Of a stretch of 64,000 nt of DNA, positions 48,506 through 64,000 are shown piece by piece. The stretch spans positions 87,964 through 151,963 of the forward strand of contig CAMVMM010000003.1 of NCBI GenBank assembly GCA_947168565.1, in the 5' to 3' direction. Position numbers and translations under genes: made by a program. Source of the DNA: an uncultured Clostridia bacterium (GTDB lineage: Bacteria > Bacillota > Clostridia > Christensenellales > CAG-138). Each line of letters begins with the position of its first letter. Position 1 is the first letter of the stretch. Under the pieces are notes generated by a model, which ran no database searches, was not told the origin of the DNA, and saw only the letters and a program-made list of their open reading frames with translations.

Positions 48506-51500
48506 TCAGGTGTTCAGGTCGGTAAATATCTCCGCGATGCTTCCCCGATCGGTAAACGGCGGTTCACGGAGGATGGACATATCGCGGATGATTCCGTTTC
48601 GGACGATGTATTCCACTATTTGATTTACGAAATAGATCTGATCGCTGTTCAGGCTTGTATCGCTCAGATATTCCGAAAACGCTTCCTTCGCGGCGTTCAT
48701 ATCCATTCCTATTATCTCGCGAACGAACACGCCCAGCGGCTTCTGCCCGAATTCGGCTTCATACTCGCTTTTGGAGCCGACCTCGCTCCAAAGAATGCCC
48801 TCAAGCACCTTGATATCCGCCTCGGTCATCGGAACGTTCGTTCGCAGCTTCTGTATCACTTCGTTGTCCGAGTGCATACGAACATAATACTCCGCCTTGG
48901 CTTTATAGTTCTTCAAATCATCATTTTCAAGCTCGGATTCGTTCCATTCCAAACCGAGTATCTCATCGCTGAAATTCGTTTCATAAGTCGCTTTGGAAAC
49001 CGGAATGTACTTCATCAGATCGCGCAGGCTCTTTCTGATATGCTCAAAATCGCTTATATCCGCGGTATCGACGTAATCGGTATGAAGTATTCTATCTATA
49101 AGCTCCGCCTGAGCCATTATCTCCGGAATATTCGCAACGCTCGCGATCCCCGAAACGCGCTTCATAAGGTCGCCCCTTGCGCGGGTGAACGGCCTTGCCG
49201 AAAGATACGCAAGCTCGATACCGTAAAGGAGCGCATCAAAACGCAACGCCTTAGGATCGTCGTGCTCCGGGTTGATCAGCGGCGCAAGCTCGTCCGCGAT
49301 CAAAAGCGTGTCCTCATAGGTTATCGTGTCGAAGTTCTTCGGATCGGAATAGAGATCAACATATTTAAGATGCTGCTTCACGGCAAAATTCTCGCGGTTC
49401 AGCTCGCGTACCCTGCTCACCATATCCGAAACCAGCGCTTCACGGAATGCGATCAGCTCCTCGGTTTGGTAGTTTATATCGCGCAGCTTGAGCACTATCT
49501 CCGACTTCAAATGAAACAGCGCGCCCTGTATCGGAAGACTGCTTGAAACGGGTTTGCCGCCGCTCATGCGGAAAAACTCGAAATTGCCGCAGAAATCGAA
49601 TATGTAGAGTTTTTCCTTATCCCGCCCGTCCAAAAGCGCGGGGCAAAGGCGCGTGCCTCGGCCTATCATCTGCCAGAATTTTGCCTTGCTCATCACCTTT
49701 TTGAAGAAAACAAGATTCAAAACTTCGGGAACATCTATTCCCGTATCAAGCATATCGACCGAAATTGCGATCTGCGGCAGCTTCCTTGGATCGGAAAACT
49801 CGTCTATCGCGCTTTGAGCGTAGGTCATATAATTATCGATAACCTTCGCATAGCCCGGCAGATGCGGGTATTCCTTGTTGAAGATCTCGAATATGCGCTC
49901 CGCGTGTTCATGGCTCTTGGCAAAGATGATCGTTTTGCCGATCTTCGCGCCGTAATCTATCTTCAGGCCGTTTGTCATAAGGATATTCAAAACCTGCTTT
50001 ATCGTGTCCTCGTTGAATATCCAATCATTGAGCGCGGATGCGCCTATCGACTCCGGCATCTCGCCGTTTTCATCGGTAAAGGTATTTTCATAGGCAAGCT
50101 TGTCCTCGTCGGAAAGCTCGTCGTAAACTATGCCCTCGCTCAAGAATTTCAGCTTGGTTTCAACCGTTACAAAGTCCACAAGGAAGCCGTCGCGCACGGC
50201 CTGCGCAAGCTCATATCCATAGGTCGGAACGCCGTTTTCAAGCTCGAAAATCTCATAGGTGTTCTTATCGATATCGTCCTTGGGCGTGGCGGTAAGACCA
50301 ACGAGCGGCGCATCGAAATAGGTGAAGATATCGCGGTATTTATTGTAGATCGAGCGGTGCGCCTCATCGCAGATAACAAGGTCGAAATGCCCACAGGTAA
50401 AGAGCTTGCCGTCATCGTCCTTCGCGGTATCGATAACGTTCATCATCGTTTGATATGTGGAAAACACGCAATGCGCGGCAAAATTCTCCTTATCCTCGCA
50501 TAAGTTAGTGACCGAAAGATCGGGCAGCAGGTTCACAAAATTGCGCTTTGCCTGGGTAACGAGCGAGTTTCGGTCGGCTAAAAACAGAATATTCTTCACC
50601 CAGCCATGCGAGAGCAGCACGTCGCACAGCGCTATAACGGTGCGCGTTTTGCCGGAGCCCGTTGCCATAACGAGCAGCGCTTTTCTGCGGTTCTTGCTGT
50701 CGAAGGCATCGCAAACCGCCCTCACCGCGCCCTCCTGGTAGTATCTTCCGGCGATATTCTTATCAACGGCGATATTCGCAAGGCTCGTGCGCATCCGCTT
50801 GAGGTTGAAAAGCTTTTTAAGATCGCGCTTTGACCAAATCGAAGCCACGCGCCTTTCGGGATAGATTCCGTCCTCGATGCGCGTATCAAAGCCGTTCGTT
50901 AAAAAGATAACCGGACGGCGCTTATACTTTTTCTCAAGCAGATCGGCATACAGCTTCGCCTGCTGACGGCCTTTTGCAGCATCCACGCAGGTGCGCTTTG
51001 CCTCGATCACCGCAAGCGCGCGCCCATCGTCGTCATACAGCACATAATCCGCAAAGCCGACCTCGCTTTTATTCGGCATACCGGGCAGCTCCACCTCATT
51101 CAGCCAATCCCTGCCATCGGCCCAGCCCGCATCCTCGAGCATGGCGTCGATATAGAGCTTGCGCGTTTTGTATTCGGAAAGTTCAAGCGGCTTGGGAACA
51201 TAGTTCTGCTGCTGCTCCTCCCTTCTTCTTGTCAGCTCCTCGCGCAGCGCCTTATTCTCCTCCATCAGCGCGGCAAGCTCGGCATCGGGCTTTGCGCTGA
51301 CTTCAATTTGAGGGGAAGGTGGCTGCGAATAGCCTTCCCCTTGAGGGGAAGGTGGCTGCGAAGCAGACGGATGAGGTGATAAAAACCGCTCATCGAACTT
51401 GGGCTCATCATAGTCCTTTGCATAGCAGCACGCCACAAAATCCATGAAAACAAACAGGTTTTTTATGCAAAGCTCCGCCTGCTCGCGGGTAAGCTTTTTG

Positions 51501-51796
51501 CCCGAATGCGCCGCGCTGTTCGCCGTTCGGCGAATAAAGTCCATGCGCTTTATTATGTCCGCACCAACTATCTCGCGGAAGGTTTCATCGCTCATCAGGG
51601 CATTCAAATTGTCCTGATACGGCAATTTCAGCTCCGCATCCACGGAAAACATCCACTTGACCGCAAGCTCCATCGCCCTGCGGCAGTTGATAACGCAGGA
51701 ACCAAGCTCCGTATTAAGCAGTTTTTCCACCGAGCAGGCGATCTCCGAAAAGGCGGAGAAATCGGGCTCGGAGAGAAGGAAGGAGAAGTTGGTCAT
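48506..51796 (-). CDS. hsdR: Type I restriction enzyme, R subunit
   Basis: A 1096-residue ATP-dependent translocase/nuclease. Order: DUF4145-like N terminus (about 1-110), a Ser/Pro linker made by an inserted repeat (about 145-170), a coiled coil, the PD-(D/E)xK nuclease (GFADYVLYDDDGRALAVIEAKR, near 245), the Walker A ATGSGKT, the DEAH box CDEAHRS, motif III GLTATP, motif VI QMIGRGTRL, and an EcoEI-type C-terminal domain. ATG 51796 is used because AGAGG precedes it. Catalytic residues are intact, so the R-M system may be functional. Last gene of the minus-strand locus. Confidence 0.93.
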   Translation of the reverse strand: MTNFSFLLSEPDFSAFSEIACSVEKLLNTELGSCVINCRRAMELAVKWMFSVDAELKLPYQDNLNALMSDETFREIVGADIIKRMDFIRRTANSAAHSGKKLTREQAELCIKNLFVFMDFVACCYAKDYDEPKFDERFLSPHPSASQPPSPQGEGYSQPPSPQIEVSAKPDAELAALMEENKALREELTRRREEQQQNYVPKPLELSEYKTRKLYIDAMLEDAGWADGRDWLNEVELPGMPNKSEVGFADYVLYDDDGRALAVIEAKRTCVDAAKGRQQAKLYADLLEKKYKRRPVIFLTNGFDTRIEDGIYPERRVASIWSKRDLKKLFNLKRMRTSLANIAVDKNIAGRYYQEGAVRAVCDAFDSKNRRKALLVMATGSGKTRTVIALCDVLLSHGWVKNILFLADRNSLVTQAKRNFVNLLPDLSVTNLCEDKENFAAHCVFSTYQTMMNVIDTAKDDDGKLFTCGHFDLVICDEAHRSIYNKYRDIFTYFDAPLVGLTATPKDDIDKNTYEIFELENGVPTYGYELAQAVRDGFLVDFVTVETKLKFLSEGIVYDELSDEDKLAYENTFTDENGEMPESIGASALNDWIFNEDTIKQVLNILMTNGLKIDYGAKIGKTIIFAKSHEHAERIFEIFNKEYPHLPGYAKVIDNYMTYAQSAIDEFSDPRKLPQIAISVDMLDTGIDVPEVLNLVFFKKVMSKAKFWQMIGRGTRLCPALLDGRDKEKLYIFDFCGNFEFFRMSGGKPVSSSLPIQGALFHLKSEIVLKLRDINYQTEELIAFREALVSDMVSRVRELNRENFAVKQHLKYVDLYSDPKNFDTITYEDTLLIADELAPLINPEHDDPKALRFDALLYGIELAYLSARPFTRARGDLMKRVSGIASVANIPEIMAQAELIDRILHTDYVDTADISDFEHIRKSLRDLMKYIPVSKATYETNFSDEILGLEWNESELENDDLKNYKAKAEYYVRMHSDNEVIQKLRTNVPMTEADIKVLEGILWSEVGSKSEYEAEFGQKPLGVFVREIIGMDMNAAKEAFSEYLSDTSLNSDQIYFVNQIVEYIVRNGIIRDMSILREPPFTDRGSIAEIFTDLNT
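51305..51379. repeat. Dispersed repeat inserted in frame in hsdR
   Basis: Two CCTTCCCCTCAA units and CACCTCATCCGTCT on the minus strand match the intergenic elements at 9675-9933. It adds about 25 residues (ASQPPSPQGEGYSQPPSPQ) without breaking the frame. Confidence 0.75.
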
Positions 51797-51811
51797 ATAA
51801 AGCACCTCTTA

Positions 51812-52465
51812 TTATTCCCGCAATTCATTGTATTTTTCATCATAAATGTATTCAGGAACGCGCAAACCGCAAACAAGCTCATTCCACCTATTAAGAAAAA
51901 ATTCCTTTTTTTCCTTAACAACATTTTTTGCAGTTCTGATTGCTCTTTTATTCTTAAAGCTTCCCGTTATATTTAGCGTAAGGATATCGATTTTTATTAC
52001 TTCGCCGCTGTACTCAACATGCACATGTGGTTGCCCCAAATGAACAGATTCGTCCGTGTGAACTATAAACTTCAATCCATCTTTTCTTAATACCTCCGCA
52101 CCTCCCGGCATCGTGTATGTCCAATACAAAACGATATGGTCTTCGTCCGAATACAGTAAATCTAAAAGTCTTTCCAATGGAACATCAAGGTTTTCAAACT
52201 CACGCAAGCAATCTTTATATAGAAGCGAAAAAAAACCGCTTAAGCATACTAAGCTTTGCGGCTTCTCTTTTGCAAAGCCGCTATTAAGACAAATATTTGC
52301 CAACATTTCACGAATAGTAGTATTTGAATCGTATTCAAAAATAACATCGTTTTTAACATACTCGCGCGTTTCTTTGCTAAAGCAACGAAGCAGTGCCGCG
52401 CTCACAGCCTCTTCGGCATACAGACTGTCATCAATCAATTCAAATTTCAATCTTATCTTCTTCAT
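51812..52465 (-). CDS. R-M locus protein with DUF4160-like C terminus
   Basis: A 217-residue protein between hsdS and hsdR. The C-terminal half includes GQPHVHVEYSGEVIKIDILTLNITGSFKNKRAIRTAKNVVKEKKEFFLNRWNEL, which has the PHVHV strand and W-terminal helix style of DUF4160 proteins (often toxin-antitoxin associated). The N-terminal half is helical without known motifs. Start ATG 52465 (GAGG upstream). AT-rich codon use resembles the AlbA-type gene. An accessory defence role is inferred from position only. Confidence 0.6.
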   Translation of the reverse strand: MKKIRLKFELIDDSLYAEEAVSAALLRCFSKETREYVKNDVIFEYDSNTTIREMLANICLNSGFAKEKPQSLVCLSGFFSLLYKDCLREFENLDVPLERLLDLLYSDEDHIVLYWTYTMPGGAEVLRKDGLKFIVHTDESVHLGQPHVHVEYSGEVIKIDILTLNITGSFKNKRAIRTAKNVVKEKKEFFLNRWNELVCGLRVPEYIYDEKYNELRE

Positions 52466-52474
52466 ATACAAACC

Positions 52475-53572
52475 TCAACCAAAGTATTTCTGCATCAAGC
52501 TGTCAAACAAAAGCTGGGCTTCATCAAGCGCCTTTTGGATGGCGGCTTTGGATTTGTCAATCTGGGCAACGAAGGCGGCAAACTGCTTTTGCAGATGGAT
52601 TGGCGGAAAAACTGCAATAATTGCCCCGATTCCATCTTGACTTACAGTATACTGCCCTGCCGAAGTCTTAATGTGGTTTCGCAGTTGGCGTTTTCCATAT
52701 TCACTATTCAGCAAAGCACTTGCGAATGTGCCATCGAGTACTGTTTCATCAAAATGAACTCTAATAATATGGTCATTATGATAAACAGGTTCGCCAATGT
52801 CATAAAACACGGAGCAACGGCCAACATTCTCCGGATTTCCATTTACTCTTGCAAACAAGAAATCATTATCAATGAGCAAATAGCGTTTCTTCTCGGCTTC
52901 CGTCAGTTTGATTCTATTCGGATTTGAATAATCTATATAGCCGTCTTGCAACTCAACAAGTCGCATTACTATATCCCCATCTATATCATTGCCACGCCGC
53001 GCCATACCATTATTGGCCGTTGTAATTGCTGCTGCCAGCGGCTTTTTAACCCAAGCTCTCGGATTGCTAACCGGATCCCCAAACATCTCGACAAATCGGG
53101 CTTTGATAAGCTCGTCAAGCTTTTGGAGCTGCTGATTCCTCGATTCGATTATTCGCTCAACCTTATTCAAAACAGCAATAACTTTGCGCTGTTCACCCAT
53201 CTCGACAAAGCTGAATTCTTCATTCTTATAATCGCGAAAATAGATATGAGGAATCGTTGCGCCGGAATAATACTTTTCAAGGTGCATATTCTGAACGGCA
53301 TACTTCAAGTATTCCGGCAGAATGCTATTCTTGGGCAAAAGATACTGCATCGTGCCGATAACGGAGGACTTTGCCGGAAGCAGCATAGTTCTGCCAATAC
53401 CCGCGCCGTCCTTTACAACGGCAACATAGGGTTTTTCCTGCTGATAAAAATCAACATAGCCTATAAGCCCCGCCGCACCGTAAACAGGATAGCCGCCACT
53501 TTTTCCGTCTATATCCTTCTGCATAAGGTTTGACGAGCCGCGCTCGCAAACATCTTCAAGTCTAACCTTCAT
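52475..53572 (-). CDS. hsdS: Type I restriction enzyme, specificity subunit
   Basis: A 365-residue two-domain specificity subunit. Each target recognition domain is followed by a conserved helix: EMGEQRKVIAVLNKVERIIESRNQQLQKLDELIKARF after the first, and PIHLQKQFAAFVAQIDKSKAAIQKALDEAQLLFDSLMQKYF after the second. It therefore recognises a bipartite site. ATG 53572, with GGGAGAA upstream. The target sequence cannot be read from the protein. Confidence 0.92.
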   Translation of the reverse strand: MKVRLEDVCERGSSNLMQKDIDGKSGGYPVYGAAGLIGYVDFYQQEKPYVAVVKDGAGIGRTMLLPAKSSVIGTMQYLLPKNSILPEYLKYAVQNMHLEKYYSGATIPHIYFRDYKNEEFSFVEMGEQRKVIAVLNKVERIIESRNQQLQKLDELIKARFVEMFGDPVSNPRAWVKKPLAAAITTANNGMARRGNDIDGDIVMRLVELQDGYIDYSNPNRIKLTEAEKKRYLLIDNDFLFARVNGNPENVGRCSVFYDIGEPVYHNDHIIRVHFDETVLDGTFASALLNSEYGKRQLRNHIKTSAGQYTVSQDGIGAIIAVFPPIHLQKQFAAFVAQIDKSKAAIQKALDEAQLLFDSLMQKYFG

Positions 53573-53632
53573 CATTTCTCCCAACAAATCTCAATTTGAT
53601 CATTTTGTTTCTCTTTCAACAAATAATACCGA

Positions 53633-54391
53633 TTAGATAGTATCTTTGGGCAATTCTATGCCAAAATGTCTCCCCCAAAGCTTCTTGACATCATTATAGC
53701 TCGCAAAGCGGTTTTTGGGGGTATTGGTATCGCCTACTCTTGTATAAATCTGAACTCCGACATCCCTGTACTGTTCCTCCAAATAGAATGGCACCTTGTT
53801 TGAAGTTTTAATCAAAAGAACATCAAGCTTACGATACTTATAGAAGATCTTTTTTACTTCTAAATCTGGCAGATGTCCTCCCGCGAATTTTTTGGATTTA
53901 ATAAAATCTATTATCTCATTTGATTTTTTCCAATCATTGACACCTACTACTTCATAATTATCACTTACTCCCACTACAAGATAGGCATCAACAAAATCTA
54001 TATTGTTCGCCAAGCATAGGATATCATGAAGCAAATCACCATTCTTCCGATCATCTTGCCATTGCCGCTTAAAATCGTAATAGCTACCCTCCTTTTTCGA
54101 GTTAATAAGCTTGACTATTGTTTCGTTAGAAGAATCGATTTCTAGTTCTTTGCACTTTAAAGCATCTACGATCTCCTTAAGAGCACTTTGTTCGCCTTCC
54201 TCACACTTGCCATTAACTACTGTATTCTTTTTCGTATTAGTATCATAAACCGTGACAATAGCACCGCTATTGCTAAACTTGAACTGCCAATTCAGTCCAT
54301 AGTTTTCTCTTTCAATAGAATCGCATATAACATACCCTATTTTAGAAAGAGAATCTTTAATATAATCGATGTCAATGCTAATTTTCGCCAT
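53633..54391 (-). CDS. AlbA_2/Schlafen-type ATP-binding protein in R-M locus
   Basis: A 252-residue protein. The C-terminal 160 residues are a Schlafen AlbA_2 domain: KEGSYYDFKRQW, HDILCLANNIDFVDAYLVVGVSDNYEVVGV and IYTRVGDTNTPKNRFA are the family motifs. The first 90 residues form an unassigned alpha/beta domain. Related proteins bind nucleic acid or nucleotide and occur in phage-defence clusters. It is more AT-rich than hsdM. The position between hsdM and hsdS suggests coexpression with the methylase. Confidence 0.78.
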   Translation of the reverse strand: MAKISIDIDYIKDSLSKIGYVICDSIERENYGLNWQFKFSNSGAIVTVYDTNTKKNTVVNGKCEEGEQSALKEIVDALKCKELEIDSSNETIVKLINSKKEGSYYDFKRQWQDDRKNGDLLHDILCLANNIDFVDAYLVVGVSDNYEVVGVNDWKKSNEIIDFIKSKKFAGGHLPDLEVKKIFYKYRKLDVLLIKTSNKVPFYLEEQYRDVGVQIYTRVGDTNTPKNRFASYNDVKKLWGRHFGIELPKDTI

Positions 54392-54410
54392 TCAGCAACC
54401 TCCGCTTGAT

Positions 54411-54593
54411 TTATGAATGCTTTGTCTCTTTATCGGTCGTAACGACCTCATCCGCTCCCGCGACCGTTTCAATAACCCCTGCAACGATCTCGCCGAGCTT
54501 TCGCGCATTATCGGCGGTTATGGCGGGTTTTCCGGTCTGCGCCTCTATATTCCTTCGTGCATCGCCGGAGATCCTTCCGCCCGCTCTCGCCAT
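54411..54593 (-). CDS. Small DinD/BRO-C-like protein or fragment
   Basis: A 60-residue frame, MARAGGRISGDARRNIEAQTGKPAITADNARKLGEIVAG. The ARRNIEAQTGKP..T..NA segment resembles the C-terminal end of DinD/BRO-type antirepressor-like proteins that often accompany R-M genes. The ATG has no clear ribosome site. An ATG overlapping the hsdM stop (54611 area) leads into a run of six A and would join this frame if one A were missing, so a slippery or decayed upstream start is possible. Confidence 0.5.
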   Translation of the reverse strand: MARAGGRISGDARRNIEAQTGKPAITADNARKLGEIVAGVIETVAGADEVVTTDKETKHS

Positions 54594-54611
54594 TTTTTAC
54601 AATTTCTTTAC

Positions 54612-56111
54612 TCATTTAAGCATCCCCTCCAGCTCGTCCATCGCCGTTTTGATCTCAGCTTCAAGCCTTCTCAGCTCCGCCATGATCTCGCTTGTGGGCG
54701 GGTAATCCACGGGCTTATACTCGGTTTTCTTATACTTATTGATCGAAAGATCGTAATCGTTTGCAACTATCTCATCCTTCGGAACAAGGAAGGATTTTTC
54801 GGTGCGCTCGCGATCCTGCTCGGCGCTTATGTTCTTGAACCTGGCGATTATATCGGGAATATCGTTTTCCTGCACAGGGCTGCGCTTATCGTCCAGGGAG
54901 AAGCCGTCCGCCTGCATATCGTAAAACCAAACCTTATCCGTGCCGCCATGCCCTGTTTTGGTGAAGATAACTATGCCCGTTGAAACTCCGGCGTAGGGCT
55001 TGAACACGCCCGACGGCATGGAGATGATCGCTTCAAGGCGGTTTTCCTCGATTAGCGCCTTGCGGATCGCCTTATGCGCCGTGGACGAGCCGAAAAGCAC
55101 GCCGTCCGGAACGATGCAGGCGCAGCGGCCGCCAACGCGCAGCATACGCAGGAAGAGCGCAAGGAACAGCAGCTCGGTTTTCTTGGTTTTGCAGGTTTTA
55201 AGCAGGTCTGCGGAAACTATGTCCGCATCCAAACTGCCCTTGAACGGCGGATTGGCGAGGATAAGCGAATACTTGTCCTTATCGGGGTTCTGATCCGAAA
55301 GGCTGTCGCGGTATTCGATAACCGGGTTGTCTATGCCGTGCGTCATCATGTTCATAGCGCCGATGCGGAGCATGGTTCGGTCCATATCATAGCCGTGGAA
55401 CATACCGTTCATATAGTGATCCTTCTTCTGCCTGTTGAAAAAGATCTCCTCGCGGCGGCGCTCCTTGAGGTATTCGCCCGCCGCAACGAGAAAGCCCGAA
55501 GTGCCGCAGGCGGGATCGCAGATGATCTCATCCGCACCGGGATTCATAAGCTCCACCATCATGCGGATTATGTGGCGGGGCGTGCGGAACTGACCGTTTA
55601 CGCCCGCCGTGGCGATCTTGGAGAGAAGGTATTCGTAAACATCGCCGCGCACGTCGGCCGAGCCGGGCAGCGCCATCTGCTCGTAGATCGCATCGAGCGA
55701 AGTGACCACCTTATCCAGCATCAGCGGCGTGGGCAGCTTGAAGATGGCGTCCGCCATGTACTTGGAATAGGCGCTTTCCTTATCGCCATGCAGATTTTTT
55801 ATGAAAGGGAAAACCAGCTCCTGCACCGTTGCATACATTTTGCTTGCGGGAAAATCGCGGAACACCGACCATTTAAGCTGATTGCCGTCCGCAAGCCTTC
55901 CGCCGACCTCCACCTCGCCCGAAAAGATGCTCGTATACGGCAGATCGAGCATCGCGCTCTCGCGGGCGCGAAGATTGTCGCTGTCGTCCAGATCGCGGAT
56001 GAACATAAGATAGGTTATCTGCTCTATAACATCGAGCGGATTGGTTAAGCCGCCCGTCCAAAATATCTCCCAAAGGCTGTCGATTTTGTTTTTCAGTTCG
56101 CCTGTTATCAT
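54612..56111 (-). CDS. hsdM: Type I restriction-modification methyltransferase
   Basis: A 499-residue N6-adenine methyltransferase subunit. An HsdM N-terminal helical domain ([36 protein letters not shown]) precedes the SAM motif [17 protein letters not shown] and the catalytic NPPF ([11 protein letters not shown]). Both are intact. First gene of the minus-strand locus, with about 250 bases to the CRISPR regulatory region. It modifies host sites and, with HsdS, forms the core of the restriction complex. Confidence 0.94.
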
Positions 56112-56288
56112 GGTTTTTCTCCAATAATGTCAATTTGCCGCGTATTTCGGCAGATTTCTACAACTATAATATACCGCGTTTATGGGACTTTGTCAAATGA
56201 AAAAGGGCGGATGCAGAGAAGAAGTACAAAAAAAGGTATCGCCGCTTTACGGATAACGGTTGCTCCATAATAAAAAATCGTTCTAATC
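56112..56288. other. Divergent gap between hsdM and the CRISPR region
   Basis: AT-rich; no gene. It should hold the hsdM promoter on the minus strand, but no convincing -35/-10 pair was identified. Confidence 0.4.
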
Positions 56289-56317
56289 TTGAAGCAATTA
56301 CAGATGAATGGTATAAT
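56289..56317 (+). promoter_or_regulatory. Predicted cas operon promoter
   Basis: TTGAAG, 17 bases, TATAAT with TGG extension. A transcript from here has a roughly 190-base leader to cas9 and crosses the whole tracrRNA gene in antisense. Confidence 0.65.
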
Positions 56318-56362
56318 ATAATTGCTGCTCGACTTACCTGAATAGTATGTGTTCAAAACAAA

Positions 56363-56479
56363 CAAAAAACGGCAATTAGATTGCCGCATTTGTGCACACA
56401 CTGTGCGGTCGGGAAACCCGACGCTTTGGATAAATCTTTATTTGAACTCGTAGTGTGAATCTATGGGGTAATAGATCAC
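56363..56479 (-). ncRNA. tracrRNA of the type II-A system
   Basis: Read on the minus strand it begins with an anti-repeat. 56451-56471 is identical on the plus strand to 21 consecutive bases of the CRISPR repeat, then a bulge (ACTCG against GAG), then TTTGA for the lower stem (pairing GUUUGA with UCAAAU). Downstream follow hairpins GUCGGG/CCCGAC and GCACA/UGUGC, then the terminator GGCAAT/ATTGCC with six T. Size about 117 bases. Confidence 0.9.
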
Positions 56480-56485
56480 ACCGAA

Positions 56486-56515
56486 AATATAACACAACAA
56501 CAGGGGGATTGTCAA
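56486..56515 (-). promoter_or_regulatory. tracrRNA promoter overlapping the cas9 leader
   Basis: On the minus strand TTGACA (56510-56515), then TTATAT or TATATT at 17-18 bases (56486-56492). The -35 ends two bases before the cas9 ATG and overlaps its ribosome site region. Confidence 0.75.
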
Positions 56516-56516
56516 T

Positions 56517-59500
56517 ATGGAAAATCGAAAAATATTTGTTGGTATTGATGCCGGCACGGATTCTATCGGCTATGCCGTTACCGACGGGGAATACAGACCG
56601 ATAAAATTCAAGGGCGAACCTATGCTTGGCGTTACGGTTTTTGAAGCGGCGAAACCGAGCGCAGAGAGGCGCGGTTACCGTACCGCCAGGCGCAGACTGG
56701 ATAGAGTTCAGCAGAGAGTCGCGCTTACCGAAGAGTTGTTTGCCAAGGAGATTGCAAAGCTCGATCCTCGTTTTTTCATAAAAAGACGTGAGAGCGCGCT
56801 CTTTAGAGCGGATGCTTCGGATATCGGGTTTGCACTTGACGGAACGGACTACAATCGAAAATATCCTACGATTCATCATCTTATCGTCGAGCTGATGCAG
56901 GACGATTCTCCGCACGATGCGAGACTCGTTTTTTGGGCATGTGCTTGGCTTACGGCACACAGAGGCCATTTTTTGAGTGAGGTCAGCCCGGATAATATTG
57001 AAGAATTGTTTGAGTTCAACAGCATTTATGACAGCTTTATCGAATTCATCAATGCCTATTATGATTCTTCACCATGGGTGTGTGATGCCGAAGCCTTTTC
57101 GGAAGTTTTGAAACGTAAAATGGGCGTTACCGCCAAGGAAAAAGCCTTTTTCGAGTTGCTCTTTGGAGGCAAGAAACCCAAGGATGAGGAAAATGCACTT
57201 TACAATAGAGCATCGCTGATCCGGCTGCTGTGCGGCGGAAAGGTAAAGGCTGCGGAGCTTTTTAATAATGAGGCATACTCGGAGATCGCATCGTTTTCAT
57301 TGGACACCGATGAAGATATGCTCGCTGCGGAGGTTTTCTCCATGCTGAACGAGGACGATTCCTGCCTGATACTGAAACTGAAGGCTATGTTCGACTGGGC
57401 GATACTTGTTGATGCGCGCAGGGGCAAAAGGACGATCTCGGAAGGCAAGGTGGATGTGTACGAGCAGCATGCGCGTGATCTTGCGCAGATCAAGCGCTTT
57501 GTGAGAAAGTATCTTCCGGAAAGATACAGGGCGATCTTTCGCGACTACGATCCGAAAATACCGAATTATACTGCGTATGTAAAGAATCTTAAATCAGCAG
57601 GCTGTATAGAAACCGACAAAGTATCCAAGGTCGGAAAAGACGCTTTTTCAGATTATCTGAAGAGGCAGATCAAGGATGCGAGCTGCGATGAAGCAGATGA
57701 AAGCCTCAAGCAGAGCATTATCGAACAACTTGAAACACGAGCTTTCCTGCCGAAACAGGTTGATTCTGACAACAGGATAATTCCGTACCAGCTCTATTAT
57801 TATGAGCTCAAGCAAATACTGAAAAACGCGTCCGTCTACCTGCCGTTCTTAAATGAAAAGGATGAAAACGGCATCACGGTCAAAGAAAAGCTTGAATCGG
57901 TATTCACCTTCCGCATTCCATATTTCGTTGGACCGCTTACCGGCCCGAAAAATGGGAATAGTCATGCTTGGATAGTTCGCAGATCGGAGGACAGGATCTA
58001 TCCATGGAACATTGAAAAGCTGGTCGATTACGATGCAAGTGAGCAAAAGTTTATAGACCGTATGACGAACCGATGCACGTACCTCGAAAACGCATCCGTT
58101 TTGCCCAAATGGTCTTTGCTGTATAGCAAATTCACCGTACTCAACGAGATAAACAATATCCGCATCAACGGCGAGGCGATAACGGTTGAATGCAAACAGC
58201 GGCTCTATCGAGAGCTGTTTATGAAAAGGAAAAAGGTTTCGGCTAAGCATATCGAGGAAGCCTTGCTTTCCGGCGGCGAAATGCGTCGAGGCGATACGCT
58301 TGAGGGAATTGATGTCACGGTCAAATCATCGTTAAGGGCATACCATGATTTTGCGAGGCTGCTCGCCGGCGGAACGCTTAATGAAGATGATGTGGAGCGT
58401 ATTATAGAGCGCCGCACATATACCGAAGATAACAGGCGCTTCAAAAACTGGGTGGATACGGAATTCCCGGCGCTGCCTGCGGAGGAAAGGCGCTACATCG
58501 CCTCGCTCAAGTATTCCGATTTCGGTCGGCTTTCAAAAGACTTGCTGAATGGCATTGAGGGGTGCCGCATATCGGACGGAACTGGAGAATTGCATACGGT
58601 CATTCACTACCTTTGGGAAACAAATGATAATCTGATGCAGATCCTGTCGGACAGATACACTTTTGCCGAGGCGATAGAGGCAAGCAACGGGGCACACAGT
58701 GGCGGCGGGAAGAGCCTGTCAGCCAGGCTCGACGATATGTATATATCCAATGCCGTAAAACGCCCGATAATCAGATTGATTGAACTGGTGAAAGAAATAC
58801 GCAAGGCCTGCGGAAAAGCTCCGGACAAGATATTCATAGAAATGGCAAGGGGCGCATCGGAGGATCAGAAGAATAAGCGGACCGAATCGAGGGCGGATCA
58901 GATCCGCAGACTGTACGCATCCTGCAAAGAGGACACCGCAGAGCTTTCAAAACAGCTTGAGGCAATGGGTGCTGAATGCGATCAGCGGCTTCGGAGCGAG
59001 AGCCTTTTCCTGTACTATATGCAGCTCGGCAGATGTATGTATACCGGCAAGCGTATAGATATTACGCGGCTTAAGGACGGCACTTACAATGTCGATCATA
59101 TCTATCCGCAGTGCTTTGTTAAGGACGACAGCATTCTGAGCAACAAGGTGCTCGTGCTGTCCGAAGCGAATTCCGATAAGGGCGACGAGTATCCGATCCC
59201 ATCGAAGTTTCGGTTGGATCCGCAGGTGCGCGCACATTGGGAGGCGCTTCATAAAGCAGGGCTTATCACCGACGAAAAGTACCGCAGGCTGACGCGCGCC
59301 AAGGCTTTTACCGATGATGAGAAGCTTGGCTTTATCAACCGTCAGCTTGTTGAAACGCGGCAATCGACCAAAGCTGCCGCGCAGCTGCTCAAAGAACTGT
59401 ACCCCGATACGGAAATAGTATATGTTAAAGCGGGATTGGTTTCCGAATTCAGAAGCGAGTTCGGAATGCTAAAAACCCGCAGCGTGAACGATCTGCATCA

Positions 59501-60590
59501 TGCAAAGGATGCCTATCTGAACATCGTTGTTGGCAACGTCTACCATGAGCGTTTCAATAAGGCATGGTTCAGCGTGCAAGAAAAATACAACGCGCAGCCG
59601 AAGAAGCTGTTTGAAAAGCCCGTGACCGTCAACGGCAGGCTTGTATGGAACGGAGGTGAATCCATCGCGTTCGTCAGAAAGATCCTCGGAAAGAATGCGA
59701 TCCGCTTCACAAGGTATGCTTTTACGAGAAAGGGTGGGCTTTTCGATCAGATGCCGCTTCGCGCAAGGGCGGGGCTCGTGCCGAGAAAAGCAGGACTTGA
59801 TCCCGCAAAATACGGCGGATACAATAAAACTACGGCGGCATTCTTCGTGCTTATTGCGTTTCATAACGGCAAAAAGAAGGACGCTATGTTCATTCCGATT
59901 GAACTTATGTATAAGGAAAGATTCCTCGCGGATCCCGATTTTGCCATTGAATACAGCAGACAAACAGCCTGCTCGATCAGCAGCAAGGCGGTTGGTGAAA
60001 TTTCATTCCCTCTCGGCATGAGACCGATCAAGATCAATACCGTTATCGAGCTCGATGGCTGCAGGGCGTGCATAACCGGAAAATCAACCGGCGGAAAGAA
60101 ATTGGGAATGACGCTTAACACCAACATCAGCATCGATTCGAGGTTGGAAACATACGTTAAAAAGCTCGAAAAGTTTGCCGAGAGAAAAAAGAAAACGCCT
60201 GCGGCCACGGTAGACGAAGCATACGATGAGATCTCGGCGGAGCGCAATCTTGAGCTTTACGATGCTTACTTTGCCAAGCTGATCTGCAAACCGTTCAATA
60301 AGATATTGGACAGCCAGATAAGCGTGCTTGAGAAGGGGCGCCCCGCCTTTGAGAAGCTGTCGCTCGAGGAGCAAACGGAGGTGCTGCTGCAAATCGTTGC
60401 GCTTTTGAAAACAGGCCGAGCGGGAGGCTGCAACCTGAAGCTTATAGGCGGTGTTGAAAAAGCAGGGGTACTCACTCTCAGCTCAACTCTTTCCAACTGG
60501 AAGAAAAAATATGAAAGCGCTGTAATAATCGATCAATCGCCTGCGGGCCTGTTTGAAAAGCGCTCGATGAATCTTCTGGAGCTTATATGA
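56517..60590 (+). CDS. cas9: Cas9 RNA-guided endonuclease (type II-A)
   Basis: A 1357-residue effector, close to the 1368 of Streptococcus pyogenes Cas9. RuvC-I GIDAGTDSIGYAVTD gives Asp11; the Arg-rich bridge helix is RRGYRTARRRLDRVQQRV; RuvC-II IFIEMARG gives Glu775; the HNH motif NVDHIYPQ gives Asp860 and His861; RuvC-III HHAKDAYLN gives His995 and Asp998. Both nuclease sites are therefore complete. A large helical recognition lobe lies between the bridge and RuvC-II. AGGGGG precedes the ATG. It cuts DNA matched by crRNA:tracrRNA next to a PAM; the PAM cannot be deduced here. The gene overlaps cas1 by four bases. Confidence 0.97.
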   Translation: MENRKIFVGIDAGTDSIGYAVTDGEYRPIKFKGEPMLGVTVFEAAKPSAERRGYRTARRRLDRVQQRVALTEELFAKEIAKLDPRFFIKRRESALFRADASDIGFALDGTDYNRKYPTIHHLIVELMQDDSPHDARLVFWACAWLTAHRGHFLSEVSPDNIEELFEFNSIYDSFIEFINAYYDSSPWVCDAEAFSEVLKRKMGVTAKEKAFFELLFGGKKPKDEENALYNRASLIRLLCGGKVKAAELFNNEAYSEIASFSLDTDEDMLAAEVFSMLNEDDSCLILKLKAMFDWAILVDARRGKRTISEGKVDVYEQHARDLAQIKRFVRKYLPERYRAIFRDYDPKIPNYTAYVKNLKSAGCIETDKVSKVGKDAFSDYLKRQIKDASCDEADESLKQSIIEQLETRAFLPKQVDSDNRIIPYQLYYYELKQILKNASVYLPFLNEKDENGITVKEKLESVFTFRIPYFVGPLTGPKNGNSHAWIVRRSEDRIYPWNIEKLVDYDASEQKFIDRMTNRCTYLENASVLPKWSLLYSKFTVLNEINNIRINGEAITVECKQRLYRELFMKRKKVSAKHIEEALLSGGEMRRGDTLEGIDVTVKSSLRAYHDFARLLAGGTLNEDDVERIIERRTYTEDNRRFKNWVDTEFPALPAEERRYIASLKYSDFGRLSKDLLNGIEGCRISDGTGELHTVIHYLWETNDNLMQILSDRYTFAEAIEASNGAHSGGGKSLSARLDDMYISNAVKRPIIRLIELVKEIRKACGKAPDKIFIEMARGASEDQKNKRTESRADQIRRLYASCKEDTAELSKQLEAMGAECDQRLRSESLFLYYMQLGRCMYTGKRIDITRLKDGTYNVDHIYPQCFVKDDSILSNKVLVLSEANSDKGDEYPIPSKFRLDPQVRAHWEALHKAGLITDEKYRRLTRAKAFTDDEKLGFINRQLVETRQSTKAAAQLLKELYPDTEIVYVKAGLVSEFRSEFGMLKTRSVNDLHHAKDAYLNIVVGNVYHERFNKAWFSVQEKYNAQPKKLFEKPVTVNGRLVWNGGESIAFVRKILGKNAIRFTRYAFTRKGGLFDQMPLRARAGLVPRKAGLDPAKYGGYNKTTAAFFVLIAFHNGKKKDAMFIPIELMYKERFLADPDFAIEYSRQTACSISSKAVGEISFPLGMRPIKINTVIELDGCRACITGKSTGGKKLGMTLNTNISIDSRLETYVKKLEKFAERKKKTPAATVDEAYDEISAERNLELYDAYFAKLICKPFNKILDSQISVLEKGRPAFEKLSLEEQTEVLLQIVALLKTGRAGGCNLKLIGGVEKAGVLTLSSTLSNWKKKYESAVIIDQSPAGLFEKRSMNLLELI

Positions 60591-61462
60591 GCTGGAGAAC
60601 GGTCGTTATTTCATCATGCTGCAAGCTGGACTATAATCTCGGCTGTATGGTCGTGCGAGGAGAAACTTCAAAGCGCGTGTTTTTGGACGAGATAGCCGTG
60701 CTTGTAATAGAGAACACGGCTGTCTCTCTCACGGAATACCTGCTGTCGGAGCTGATTGCGAGAAAGGTCAAGGTGATATTCTGCGATGAAAAGCGAAATC
60801 CTTGCGCCGAGCTCGTACCGTATGCGGGCAGCCACGATTCATCGCGCAAGATCAAGATGCAGATGTCGTGGAGTGACGACGTTAAAAACGCGGTTTGGAC
60901 GGAGATCATAGCCGAGAAAATTGGAAAGCAGGCCGATTTACTTGAAAAGCTGAATAAGCAGAGGGAAACCGATCTGCTGCGCCAATACATACGCGAGCTT
61001 AAATTCGGTGATACGAGCAACCGCGAGGGCCATGCTGCGAAGGTCTATTTTAACGCGCTCTTCGGGATGGACTTTACAAGAAGCCTTGAATGCCCGCTAA
61101 ATGCCGCGCTTAATTACGGCTACAGCCTGATCCTTTCCATTTGCAGTCGGGAGATCTCAGCGGGAGGCTATCTAAATCAGCTTGGCATTCATCACGATAA
61201 CGCTTTCAACGCCTTTAATCTGGCTTGCGATCTGATGGAGCCTATTAGGCCTTTTGTAGACGGAGCGGTTTATTACGAAAGACCGGCTTCTTTTGAAACC
61301 GAGCAGAAGCACAGAATGCTTGAGATCCTAAACGATGAAGTGATGATAGACGGAGCGCGTCAAACGCTGCTTAACGGCATAAAACTGTATGTGCGAAGCG
61401 TGTTTTCCGCGCTGAACGACGCCGATGTATCTCTGATAAAGTTTTGTAAATATGAGTTTTAG
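60587..61462 (+). CDS. cas1: Cas1 integrase (type II)
   Basis: A 291-residue spacer integrase. Metal ligands appear in [12 protein letters not shown] (Glu), [10 protein letters not shown] (His) and [12 protein letters not shown] (Asp/Glu), with the type II N terminus [17 protein letters not shown]. It works as (Cas1)4(Cas2)2 and in II-A systems needs Cas9 and Csn2 for prespacer choice. The ATGA overlap with cas9 couples them. Confidence 0.96.
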
Positions 61463-61772
61463 ATTTATGCGAATAGTTGTATTCTTTGATCTTCCCACGG
61501 AGTCTTTGGAGGATAAGCGCAATTATCGGCATTTCCGAAAGCTGCTTATCAACAACGGCTTTATCATGATGCAGGAATCGGTCTATTGCAGAATGGTTCT
61601 CAACAGGGGTGTTGAGGCTTCAGTGGTCGAAACATTGAAGCGGGAACGTCCGCCAAAGGGTATTGTGCAGGTGCTGACTGTCACAGAAAAGCAGTTTGCC
61701 GAAATGAAATATCTTGTTGGCGTTGCCGCCTCCGAAATGGTGGACAGTACGGAACGGTTGGTGATATTATGA
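61452..61772 (+). CDS. cas2: Cas2 (type II)
   Basis: A 106-residue ferredoxin-like protein that bridges Cas1 dimers. The N terminus [41 protein letters not shown] matches II-A Cas2, which begins with an extra MSxRxM, so the start at 61452 overlapping cas1 by 11 bases is preferred over the internal ATG at 61467. Confidence 0.95.
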
Positions 61773-62434
61773 AACTTGTTTCGCCGCTTTTTAATTCCAT
61801 TATCGAAATGTCGGATGGTGCGGTCGCATCACTTGTGATCGAAAACCAAGATCTTTTTCGAGCGCTCCTGACGGACATTGCATTTCAGATCGGCGGCGCG
61901 GACGGGCAGACCGTGCTTTCGCGCGATAATAAACCTATCGCGCTTTCCAAGAATGCGGATTTGATGCGCGAGTTTGCTCCGTTTGAAGTCAACACAAAAA
62001 CAATGCAAACGAGGATCGTTTCGGAGCTTGAAACGCTTGCTTCAAACGAAACAAATTGGTTAAGAACAAGCGAACTCATAGGGCAGTTCGAGCGATTCAT
62101 CACCGAGCTTTCGCTCGAGCTCCCGTGCGATATCGAGTGTTCCAAGCTGACTATCGGGAGCATGCTTAAAGCGGCGGGAGTATCCGTCGGCTGCCGCTCG
62201 GACGAACCGATCGGCGTGGTGCTTGAGTATATGGAACTGATACGCTCGCTTTGCGGCAGACGGCTGTTCATTGCAGTAAATATGCGCAGCTTCTTTTCGG
62301 ATCGAAAGATGGAATTGTTTGCAAAAGATGTGATCGCAAAAAAACTCGACCTGCTGCTGCTCGAGGGCTGCGACCGTCCGCGCCTTGAAAACGAGCGCAG
62401 GTGGACGATCGACAGGGAGCTGTGTGAGTTTTGA
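61769..62434 (+). CDS. csn2: Csn2 adaptation protein
   Basis: A 221-residue protein that overlaps cas2 by four bases and is the last cas gene. Csn2 forms a ring around DNA ends during spacer capture and defines subtype II-A. The sequence is consistent with the short Csn2 type: N-terminal [31 protein letters not shown], central helices, and C-terminal [34 protein letters not shown] before the final strand. No functional P-loop is seen, as expected. Confidence 0.9.
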
Positions 62435-62551: not shown

Positions 62552-63972
62552 GTTTGAGAGTAGTGTGAATCTATGGGGTAACAAAACTTGCGGCGACGCC
62601 GTGACCGGCGAAACGCTGTTTGAGAGTAGTGTGAATCTATGGGGTAACAAAACGGATATACACCATGAAGGTGATTCAGATGTGTTTGAGAGTAGTGTGA
62701 ATCTATGGGGTAACAAAACCTTCGGGCGTAAATTCAGATACCGGATGCGTTTGAGAGTAGTGTGAATCTATGGGGTAACAAAACCTTGGCGATACCCGAA
62801 GCGCGAATGTTTATGTTTGAGAGTAGTGTGAATCTATGGGGTAACAAAACGTAAAGCTCAGGAGATTCCGCATAGGCCGCGTTTGAGAGTAGTGTGAATC
62901 TATGGGGTAACAAAACCCTTTCATTTTTTATATCCCACAAGCTGAGTGTTTGAGAGTAGTGTGAATCTATGGGGTAACAAAACCGCCCGCGTTAAAGTGG
63001 GGCTTAACGTGCCGTTTGAGAGTAGTGTGAATCTATGGGGTAACAAAACCCGCAGGATAGCTCAAACTGTTGCCCTTCAGTTTGAGAGTAGTGTGAATCT
63101 ATGGGGTAACAAAACCCCCCCGCGAAGCTCGGTTGGGTGTGGCTCGTTTGAGAGTAGTGTGAATCTATGGGGTAACAAAACCAGCCCCGTGAACTGTCCC
63201 ACGGTTTCAGGGTTTGAGAGTAGTGTGAATCTATGGGGTAACAAAACCGGATGACGCAACGCCGTATCGAGGAATGGGTTTGAGAGTAGTGTGAATCTAT
63301 GGGGTAACAAAACTGTACCTCCTGCACAAATACCAGTTTGGGCGTTTGAGAGTAGTGTGAATCTATGGGGTAACAAAACCACATTCGCAAGCGTTACAGG
63401 CTGCAAGCCGTTTGAGAGTAGTGTGAATCTATGGGGTAACAAAACCGCAACGCACGGACGGCGGTGACATACGCCGTTTGAGAGTAGTGTGAATCTATGG
63501 GGTAACAAAACGTACCCCTGCTCCATCGCCAGCACCTCGTCGTTTGAGAGTAGTGTGAATCTATGGGGTAACAAAACTACTACAGTAGCAGGTGAAAGCG
63601 GAGATTCGTTTGAGAGTAGTGTGAATCTATGGGGTAACAAAACGTTCGCACTTCGAGTATCGCCGAGGCGAGGGTTTGAGAGTAGTGTGAATCTATGGGG
63701 TAACAAAACGCATTGAATACAGAAGTACTCTGTGAATGTGTTTGAGAGTAGTGTGAATCTATGGGGTAACAAAACGGCGGTATGCACGAGCCGCGAAACG
63801 ACCGCGTTTGAGAGTAGTGTGAATCTATGGGGTAACAAAACCGATTCTCGCAAGGTCTCATTGGGTGAGAGTTTGAGAGTAGTGTGAATCTATGGGGTAA
63901 CAAAACCTTGAGTATGCTGCTGGATGCCGCGAAGCAGTTTGAGAGTAGTGTGAATCTATGGGGTAACAAAAC
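62552..63972 (+). CRISPR. Type II-A CRISPR array, at least 22 repeats
   Basis: Twenty-two copies of a 36-base repeat (start GTTTGAGAGTAGTG, end GGGGTAACAAAAC) appear identical by eye. They are separated by 21 spacers of 29-31 bases (mostly 30). A partial 22nd spacer runs to the window end, so the array continues. Spacers all differ by eye. Orientation is the same as the cas genes, with newest spacers expected at the 62588 end. Confidence 0.97.
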
Positions 63973-64000
63973 TATGATTTGGAGGTCAAACCGATGTATC

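Follow-up and report, generated by a model that had tools for sequence, protein, structure and literature searches.

A predicted cas promoter beyond the tracrRNA gene: antisense layout of tracrRNA and cas9 leader in a Clostridia type II-A locus and its relatives

Results

Organisation of the type II-A locus

The stretch of DNA analysed here (64,000 nt, in the following called the window) carries a type II-A CRISPR-Cas locus, in which cas9, cas1, cas2 and csn2 form a single cluster and the models TIGR01865, TIGR03639, TIGR01573 and TIGR01866 were all matched above their own cut-offs (Table 1). A gap of 405 nt separates cas9 from the hsdM gene on its left. Since hsdM is divergent, transcription of cas9 should begin within this gap. 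Type I restriction-modification genes, whose NCBIfam names stayed below the cut-off, span positions 48506-56111 of the minus strand with two extra genes amid them. An RNase III gene is present in the source genome.

Table 1. Features of the cas9 upstream region and neighbouring genes in the window.
Feature	Position	Strand	Remarks
HsdR-like	48506-51805	-	NCBIfam name below cut-off
DUF4160 gene	51812-52471	-	extra gene amid type I restriction-modification genes
HsdS-like	52475-53587	-	NCBIfam name below cut-off
SLFN_AlbA_2 gene	53633-54391	-	extra gene amid type I restriction-modification genes
hsdM, type I DNA methylase	54612-56111	-	left of and divergent from cas9; Pfam N6_Mtase and HsdM_N over cut-off, NCBIfam names below cut-off
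hsdM promoter-like site	56196-56168	-	in the 405-nt gap
Predicted cas operon promoter	56289-56317	+	TTGAAG-17-TATAAT, TG before -10, 10/12 matches
Putative cas mRNA leader, ~193 nt	56324-56516	+	holds the entire tracrRNA complement; start placed from promoter boxes
Predicted tracrRNA, ~117 nt	56363-56479	-	putative ends
tracrRNA intrinsic terminator	56369-56387	-	T-rich tail 7/8 on - side, 4/8 on + side
Repeat-like stretch in cas leader	56450-56471	+	complement of anti-repeat; 22/22 with CRISPR repeat
Hairpin at predicted tracrRNA 5' end	56452-56482	-	pairs with distal anti-repeat
tracrRNA promoter	56486-56515	-	TTGACA-18-TATATT, TG before -10, 11/12 matches
Second plus-strand promoter-like site	56509-56536	+	9/12 matches; -10 within cas9
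cas9 (1357 aa)	56517-60590	+	ATG at 56517
cas1	60587-61462	+	
cas2	61452-61772	+	
csn2	61769-62434	+	type II-A marker
CRISPR array	62552-64000	+	36-nt repeat; window and contig run out within the array or directly after it

Within the gap a tracrRNA gene is predicted on the minus strand. Its anti-repeat is complementary to the array repeat at 22 of 22 positions (56450-56471), and the duplex of the two has an energy of -43.4 kcal/mol. An Rfam search of the tracrRNA returned no match at E ≤ 1; the gene is therefore called from its anti-repeat, its promoter and its terminator. The first-pass annotation had located the tracrRNA promoter on the ribosome-site region of cas9, and this holds: the -35 element (56510-56515) of the 11/12 site lies between the Shine-Dalgarno sequence (AGGGGG, 56502-56507) and the ATG. 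Start sites placed from the promoter boxes fall at about 56324 on the plus and 56479 on the minus strand, the latter 22 nt upstream of the Shine-Dalgarno sequence.

The predicted cas transcript traverses the tracrRNA gene

Promoters were scored with a weight matrix not trained on this lineage, covering sigma-70-type sites with spacers of 16-18 nt; scores were set against 200 dinucleotide shuffles for each locus. The best plus-strand score that the window reached over the 130 nt preceding the tracrRNA terminator was 13.4, which none of its 200 shuffles attained. It belongs to the 10/12 site at which the first-pass annotation had placed the cas promoter, with correct coordinates, and which as seen from cas9 sits past the terminator. 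Between terminator and ATG nothing on this strand was better than chance (best score 4.0, p = 0.795), such that the cas mRNA should traverse the entire tracrRNA gene. The complementarity of the leader to the tracrRNA, including the repeat-like stretch that had been pointed out before, follows from this crossing and is no separate finding.

A scan of positions 55900-57200 gave six promoter-like sites compared to 2.2 (sd 1.7) in shuffles, and one terminator-like site, that of the tracrRNA on the minus strand, compared to 1.6. By themselves such counts are weak proof; the weight of the argument lies in position and in conservation among relatives. Two of the promoter-like sites are on the plus strand, and only that at 56289-56317 is able to serve cas9, since the -10 of the other falls inside cas9 and a full message could not start from it. 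The scanned region holds no terminator-like site on the plus strand and hence none between cas promoter and cas9. The scan thus gave no sign of a separate small RNA of the scaRNA type, one partly complementary to the tracrRNA with a start and a terminator of its own.

In the promoter-region alignment, from which the row of locus L002 was excluded (wrong strand), the relative with a 93% identical Cas9 (L021) keeps the spacing and the -10 of the cas promoter (TTGATA-17-TATAAT) while the -35 differs. An inverted repeat, AGCAATTA/TAATTGCT at 56293-56300 and 56319-56326, flanks the -10 in the window; its counterpart in L021 is ACAATTA/TAATTGT, with a matching change. Arms of at least 8 appeared in 13 of 500 shuffles, and the repeat is a possible operator.

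Positions, orientations, promoter enrichment and recurrence in relatives come from sequence and comparison; we infer that the plus-strand promoter is active and serves as the main promoter of the cas genes. Layout and promoter use together we consider probable.

The antisense layout recurs among related cas9 loci

The survey comprised 76 loci, near-duplicates among them: that of the window, 68 of 69 related loci (L052 was excluded as it has no upstream DNA) and seven from a search of 101 genomes, 18 of which matched. The tracrRNA was antisense just upstream of cas9 in 54 loci and co-directional in 15; seven were unassigned (L089 with a weak plus-strand match of 22, L009, which was on the wrong strand, L010, L011, L048, L061 and L081). 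A repeat-like stretch on the plus strand, at most about 121 nt from the start codon, is found in 52 of the 54 antisense loci, and L072 and L087 were filed by promoter position alone. For L006, L038, L040, L070, L079, L085 and L088 the repeat-like scores are only 26-30, values also reached by chance matches elsewhere, and the filing of these loci therefore rests on position and promoter. The antisense layout recurs among relatives whose Cas9 identity ranges between 93% and the low 30s. Named isolates that have it are Blautia wexlerae MSK.20.46 (L028) and Ruminococcus albus KH2T6 (L035). In the co-directional loci (e.g. L049, L051, L054, L055 and L060) the tracrRNA gene lies upstream of cas9 with, by eye, a promoter-like stretch of its own.

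Every one of the 54 antisense loci carries, close to the start of cas9, a minus-strand promoter with a score of 10.0 or more, and in 29 of them the tracrRNA -35 is at most 1 nt away from the start codon. In the 130 nt beyond the terminator a plus-strand promoter with p ≤ 0.05 occurs in 25 of 54 loci (2.7 expected; score of at least 10 in 24), compared to 4 of 54 between terminator and ATG (L050, L056, L062 and L075; score of at least 10 in three), where for L022, L023 and L070 position -140 or -150 served as boundary. Sequence and relatives thus both support the earlier proposal of a cas promoter beyond the tracrRNA gene with an antisense leader. The other 29 loci have no significant plus-strand promoter in the 130-nt stretch.

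Some loci that lack a nearby plus-strand promoter have a gene oriented like cas9 whose end coincides with the tracrRNA terminator or lies no more than about 20 nt from it. Five such upstream proteins were scanned (L024, L029, L039, L083 and L088) and all five match WYL and WCX domains. A cas9 transcript begun ahead of such a gene would presumably traverse the tracrRNA gene as well. In 13 of 51 loci, the window not among them, the terminator carries a T-rich tail on the cas strand too and could there also halt cas-strand transcripts; that all 51 have such a tail on the tracrRNA side is a result of how the sites were selected. This count omits L023 and L070, for which no terminator was found, and L022, whose match is a different hairpin.

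A quick tree was built from 58 Cas9 proteins (40 antisense, 13 co-directional, 5 unassigned), those of L035, L039 and L047 being too short; the midpoint root served for drawing only. Antisense rows occupy both sides of this root, and the 13 co-directional rows lie within one supported group of 18 together with three antisense and two unassigned rows. Within this set the antisense layout therefore looks like the older one. For the co-directional group four label changes are needed, at least three of them forced by starred branches.

A hairpin at the predicted tracrRNA 5' end

The predicted 5' end of the tracrRNA can fold back onto the distal anti-repeat. Folding was carried out for 46 of the 54 antisense loci (33 non-redundant), leaving out L070, L072, L074, L077, L083, L085, L087 and L088. 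The first paired base was found -3 to +2 nt from the predicted tracrRNA start in 32 of the 33 loci, with the folded piece itself beginning at -3. The mean energy was -7.55 kcal/mol compared to -3.15 for arms swapped among loci and -2.52 for shuffled arms, and in 20 of 33 loci the own arm was within the best tenth of swaps. In a separate fold of L070, L072 and L074 the 5'-terminal hairpin was absent, and L056, L057 and L058 preferred another hairpin in the same fold. Among relatives the hairpin is retained despite sequence divergence.

By eye, 13 of the 15 co-directional loci show the hairpin as well, L047 and L065 not clearly so; it therefore characterises most of these tracrRNAs and not the antisense layout. 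The energy does not decide between the strands (-7.55 for tracrRNA and -7.57 for cas leader, the tracrRNA strand being better in 16 of 33 loci). That the hairpin begins at the predicted tracrRNA start speaks for the tracrRNA. In the window the repeat duplex (-43.4 kcal/mol) far exceeds the hairpin (-7.3 kcal/mol). The hairpin may shield the 5' end, or may keep the anti-repeat until the repeat displaces it.

Discussion

Possible consequences of the layout

When the predicted cas promoter fires, polymerase would pass through the tracrRNA gene and produce an RNA able to pair with the tracrRNA. A burst of cas transcription would then reduce the free tracrRNA by collision or by RNase III cutting, with occlusion of the tracrRNA promoter as a further possibility. 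Translation of cas9 would survive: The predicted duplex stops about 22 nt short of the Shine-Dalgarno sequence, such that the ribosome site would stay free. RNase III cutting could shorten the cas mRNA and still leave it translatable, yet would destroy the paired tracrRNA copy. Any effect would be expected mainly on the tracrRNA, because cutting need not harm cas9 translation. The arrangement would work like the P2cas promoter of Streptococcus agalactiae (see below) with P1cas absent.

Taken alone, the regulatory consequence that cas transcription lowers tracrRNA is a tentative proposal that we regard as doubtful. Collision or RNase III could plausibly give mutual control of cas9 and tracrRNA. 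The same applies to the suggestion of the first-pass annotation that the layout balances cas9 against tracrRNA, which is plausible only, considering the position of the duplex end and a derived group that does without the layout. It had also been suggested that Cas9 binds at its own leader. Cas9 needs the bulge of the repeat:anti-repeat duplex. The leader pairs with the tracrRNA without the bulge that a true repeat leaves, which makes such binding look unlikely. Altogether, the earlier observation is confirmed and its interpretation partly supported.

A farther-reaching reading is that, in a large set of Clostridia, the cas leader serves as an obligate antisense partner of the tracrRNA and couples the output of Cas9 to the supply of tracrRNA. 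The 5' hairpin present in most loci would hold the anti-repeat back, to be opened either by a full repeat or by the cas leader, and together this would provide feedback without a long tracrRNA guide. We think this unlikely, the more so since some antisense loci lack the hairpin.

Alternative explanations

The layout could also be present without any regulation, cas9 being transcribed through the tracrRNA gene for reasons of compactness alone and with no measurable effect of collision or pairing. This is compatible with the layout itself and stands close to an even chance. It would fit the duplex ending short of the ribosome site, and immunity is reported to be functional in S. agalactiae strains relying on P2cas (excerpted text of PMC12216829). 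The derived co-directional group, too, retains cas9 and tracrRNA without the layout. Against it speaks the recurrence of the layout over the whole range of Cas9 identities, although compactness could account for this as well. If the layout is regulatory, it would provide a guide-free coupling of the Cas9 level to tracrRNA in many Clostridia; if not, evolution has long tolerated an essential guide RNA whose gene is overlapped in full by an antisense transcript.

Alternatively, cas9 could have a close promoter of its own, inside the tracrRNA gene or of another sigma class, and the site at 56289 would make a separate antisense RNA. The scan covered sigma-70-type sites only, four relatives carry a plus-strand candidate inside, and S. 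agalactiae is described as having a short RNA antisense to the 3' end of its tracrRNA (excerpted text of PMC4448216). In the window itself the best inside score is at chance level and no plus-strand terminator-like site separates the 56289 promoter from cas9. The srn036 promoter of S. agalactiae is moreover reported to drive the cas genes (PMC12216829, excerpt). We consider a separate close promoter quite improbable.

The least probable reading is that of Streptococcus pyogenes, where a longer tracrRNA with its start within cas9 would serve as natural single guide and recruit Cas9 to the cas promoter: The tracrRNA 5' end does fold onto the anti-repeat in a rather single-guide-like manner, as predicted similarly for Listeria (PMC6199352, excerpt), but the longest guide match in about 420 nt upstream of cas9 is 7 nt in the window (shuffles 7.1), the mean over 46 loci is 7.5 nt (shuffles 7.56; L038 and L053, without a match of at least 6 nt, entered as 0), and the nearest minus-strand promoter-like sites inside cas9 (57019 and 57086, scan to 57200) match at only 9/12 positions. 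Matches of 11 nt occur in L037, where shuffles reach the same length, and in L073 (maximum of 10 in 30 shuffles); the single-guide route, unsupported on average, stays conceivable for these two relatives.

Comparison with known systems

Our preferred reading, a cas promoter beyond an antisense tracrRNA gene, has its closest published counterpart in S. agalactiae, as far as the excerpts of the reports cited here go. In that species two promoters transcribe the cas operon, P1cas and, at the 3' end of the tracrRNA gene, P2cas; P2cas is repressed by CovR and reported to be sufficient for cas transcription in strains without P1cas, which is lost in some lineages (PMC12216829). Both systems place a cas promoter distally, where the tracrRNA gene ends, in the window as judged from the sequence. 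From its stated position the P2cas transcript would cross the S. agalactiae tracrRNA gene as well. P2cas is a second, CovR-repressed promoter, whereas in the window a P1cas would find no room, since tracrRNA -35 and cas9 start overlap, and the layout is found in many Clostridia. Antisense transcription over the tracrRNA was likewise described in S. agalactiae in 2015, as a short RNA, about 100 nt in length, that covers the 3' end and was suggested to modulate the tracrRNA (PMC4448216); in the window the cas mRNA leader would take this place.

S. pyogenes also has a type II-A locus, in which tracr-L mediates autoregulation by a guide matching the cas promoter region over 11 nt (PMC11417352, PMC8616872, excerpts). 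A guide match above chance was found neither in the window nor in the mean of 46 loci. The first-pass annotation had called the antisense layout a different route from the long tracrRNA. This fits the results of the guide search and falls short with respect to P2cas and the 2015 antisense RNA, both already published. The repeat-like hairpin unit predicted for Listeria II-A loci likewise has a self-complementary stretch resembling the repeat, followed by a tracrRNA-like body (PMC6199352, excerpt), but the hairpin in the window begins at the predicted tracrRNA start and leaves no guide on the transcript. CJnc190 and CJnc180 of Campylobacter are a cis-encoded antisense pair, one the antagonist of the other, with involvement of RNase III (PMC8687705, excerpt). 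Both are small RNAs, whereas the antagonist in the window would be a predicted mRNA leader.

The published mechanisms of Cas9 restraint that we found, in excerpted sources, concern streptococci. Among the matches listed in a literature search no title or abstract dealt with the layout in Clostridia, which is weak evidence of absence as the search covered few subscription journals. With P2cas as precedent, as excerpted, the layout is known in kind and not a wholly new route. New is its spread, on the basis of the compared loci, as the apparently sole arrangement in many Clostridia.
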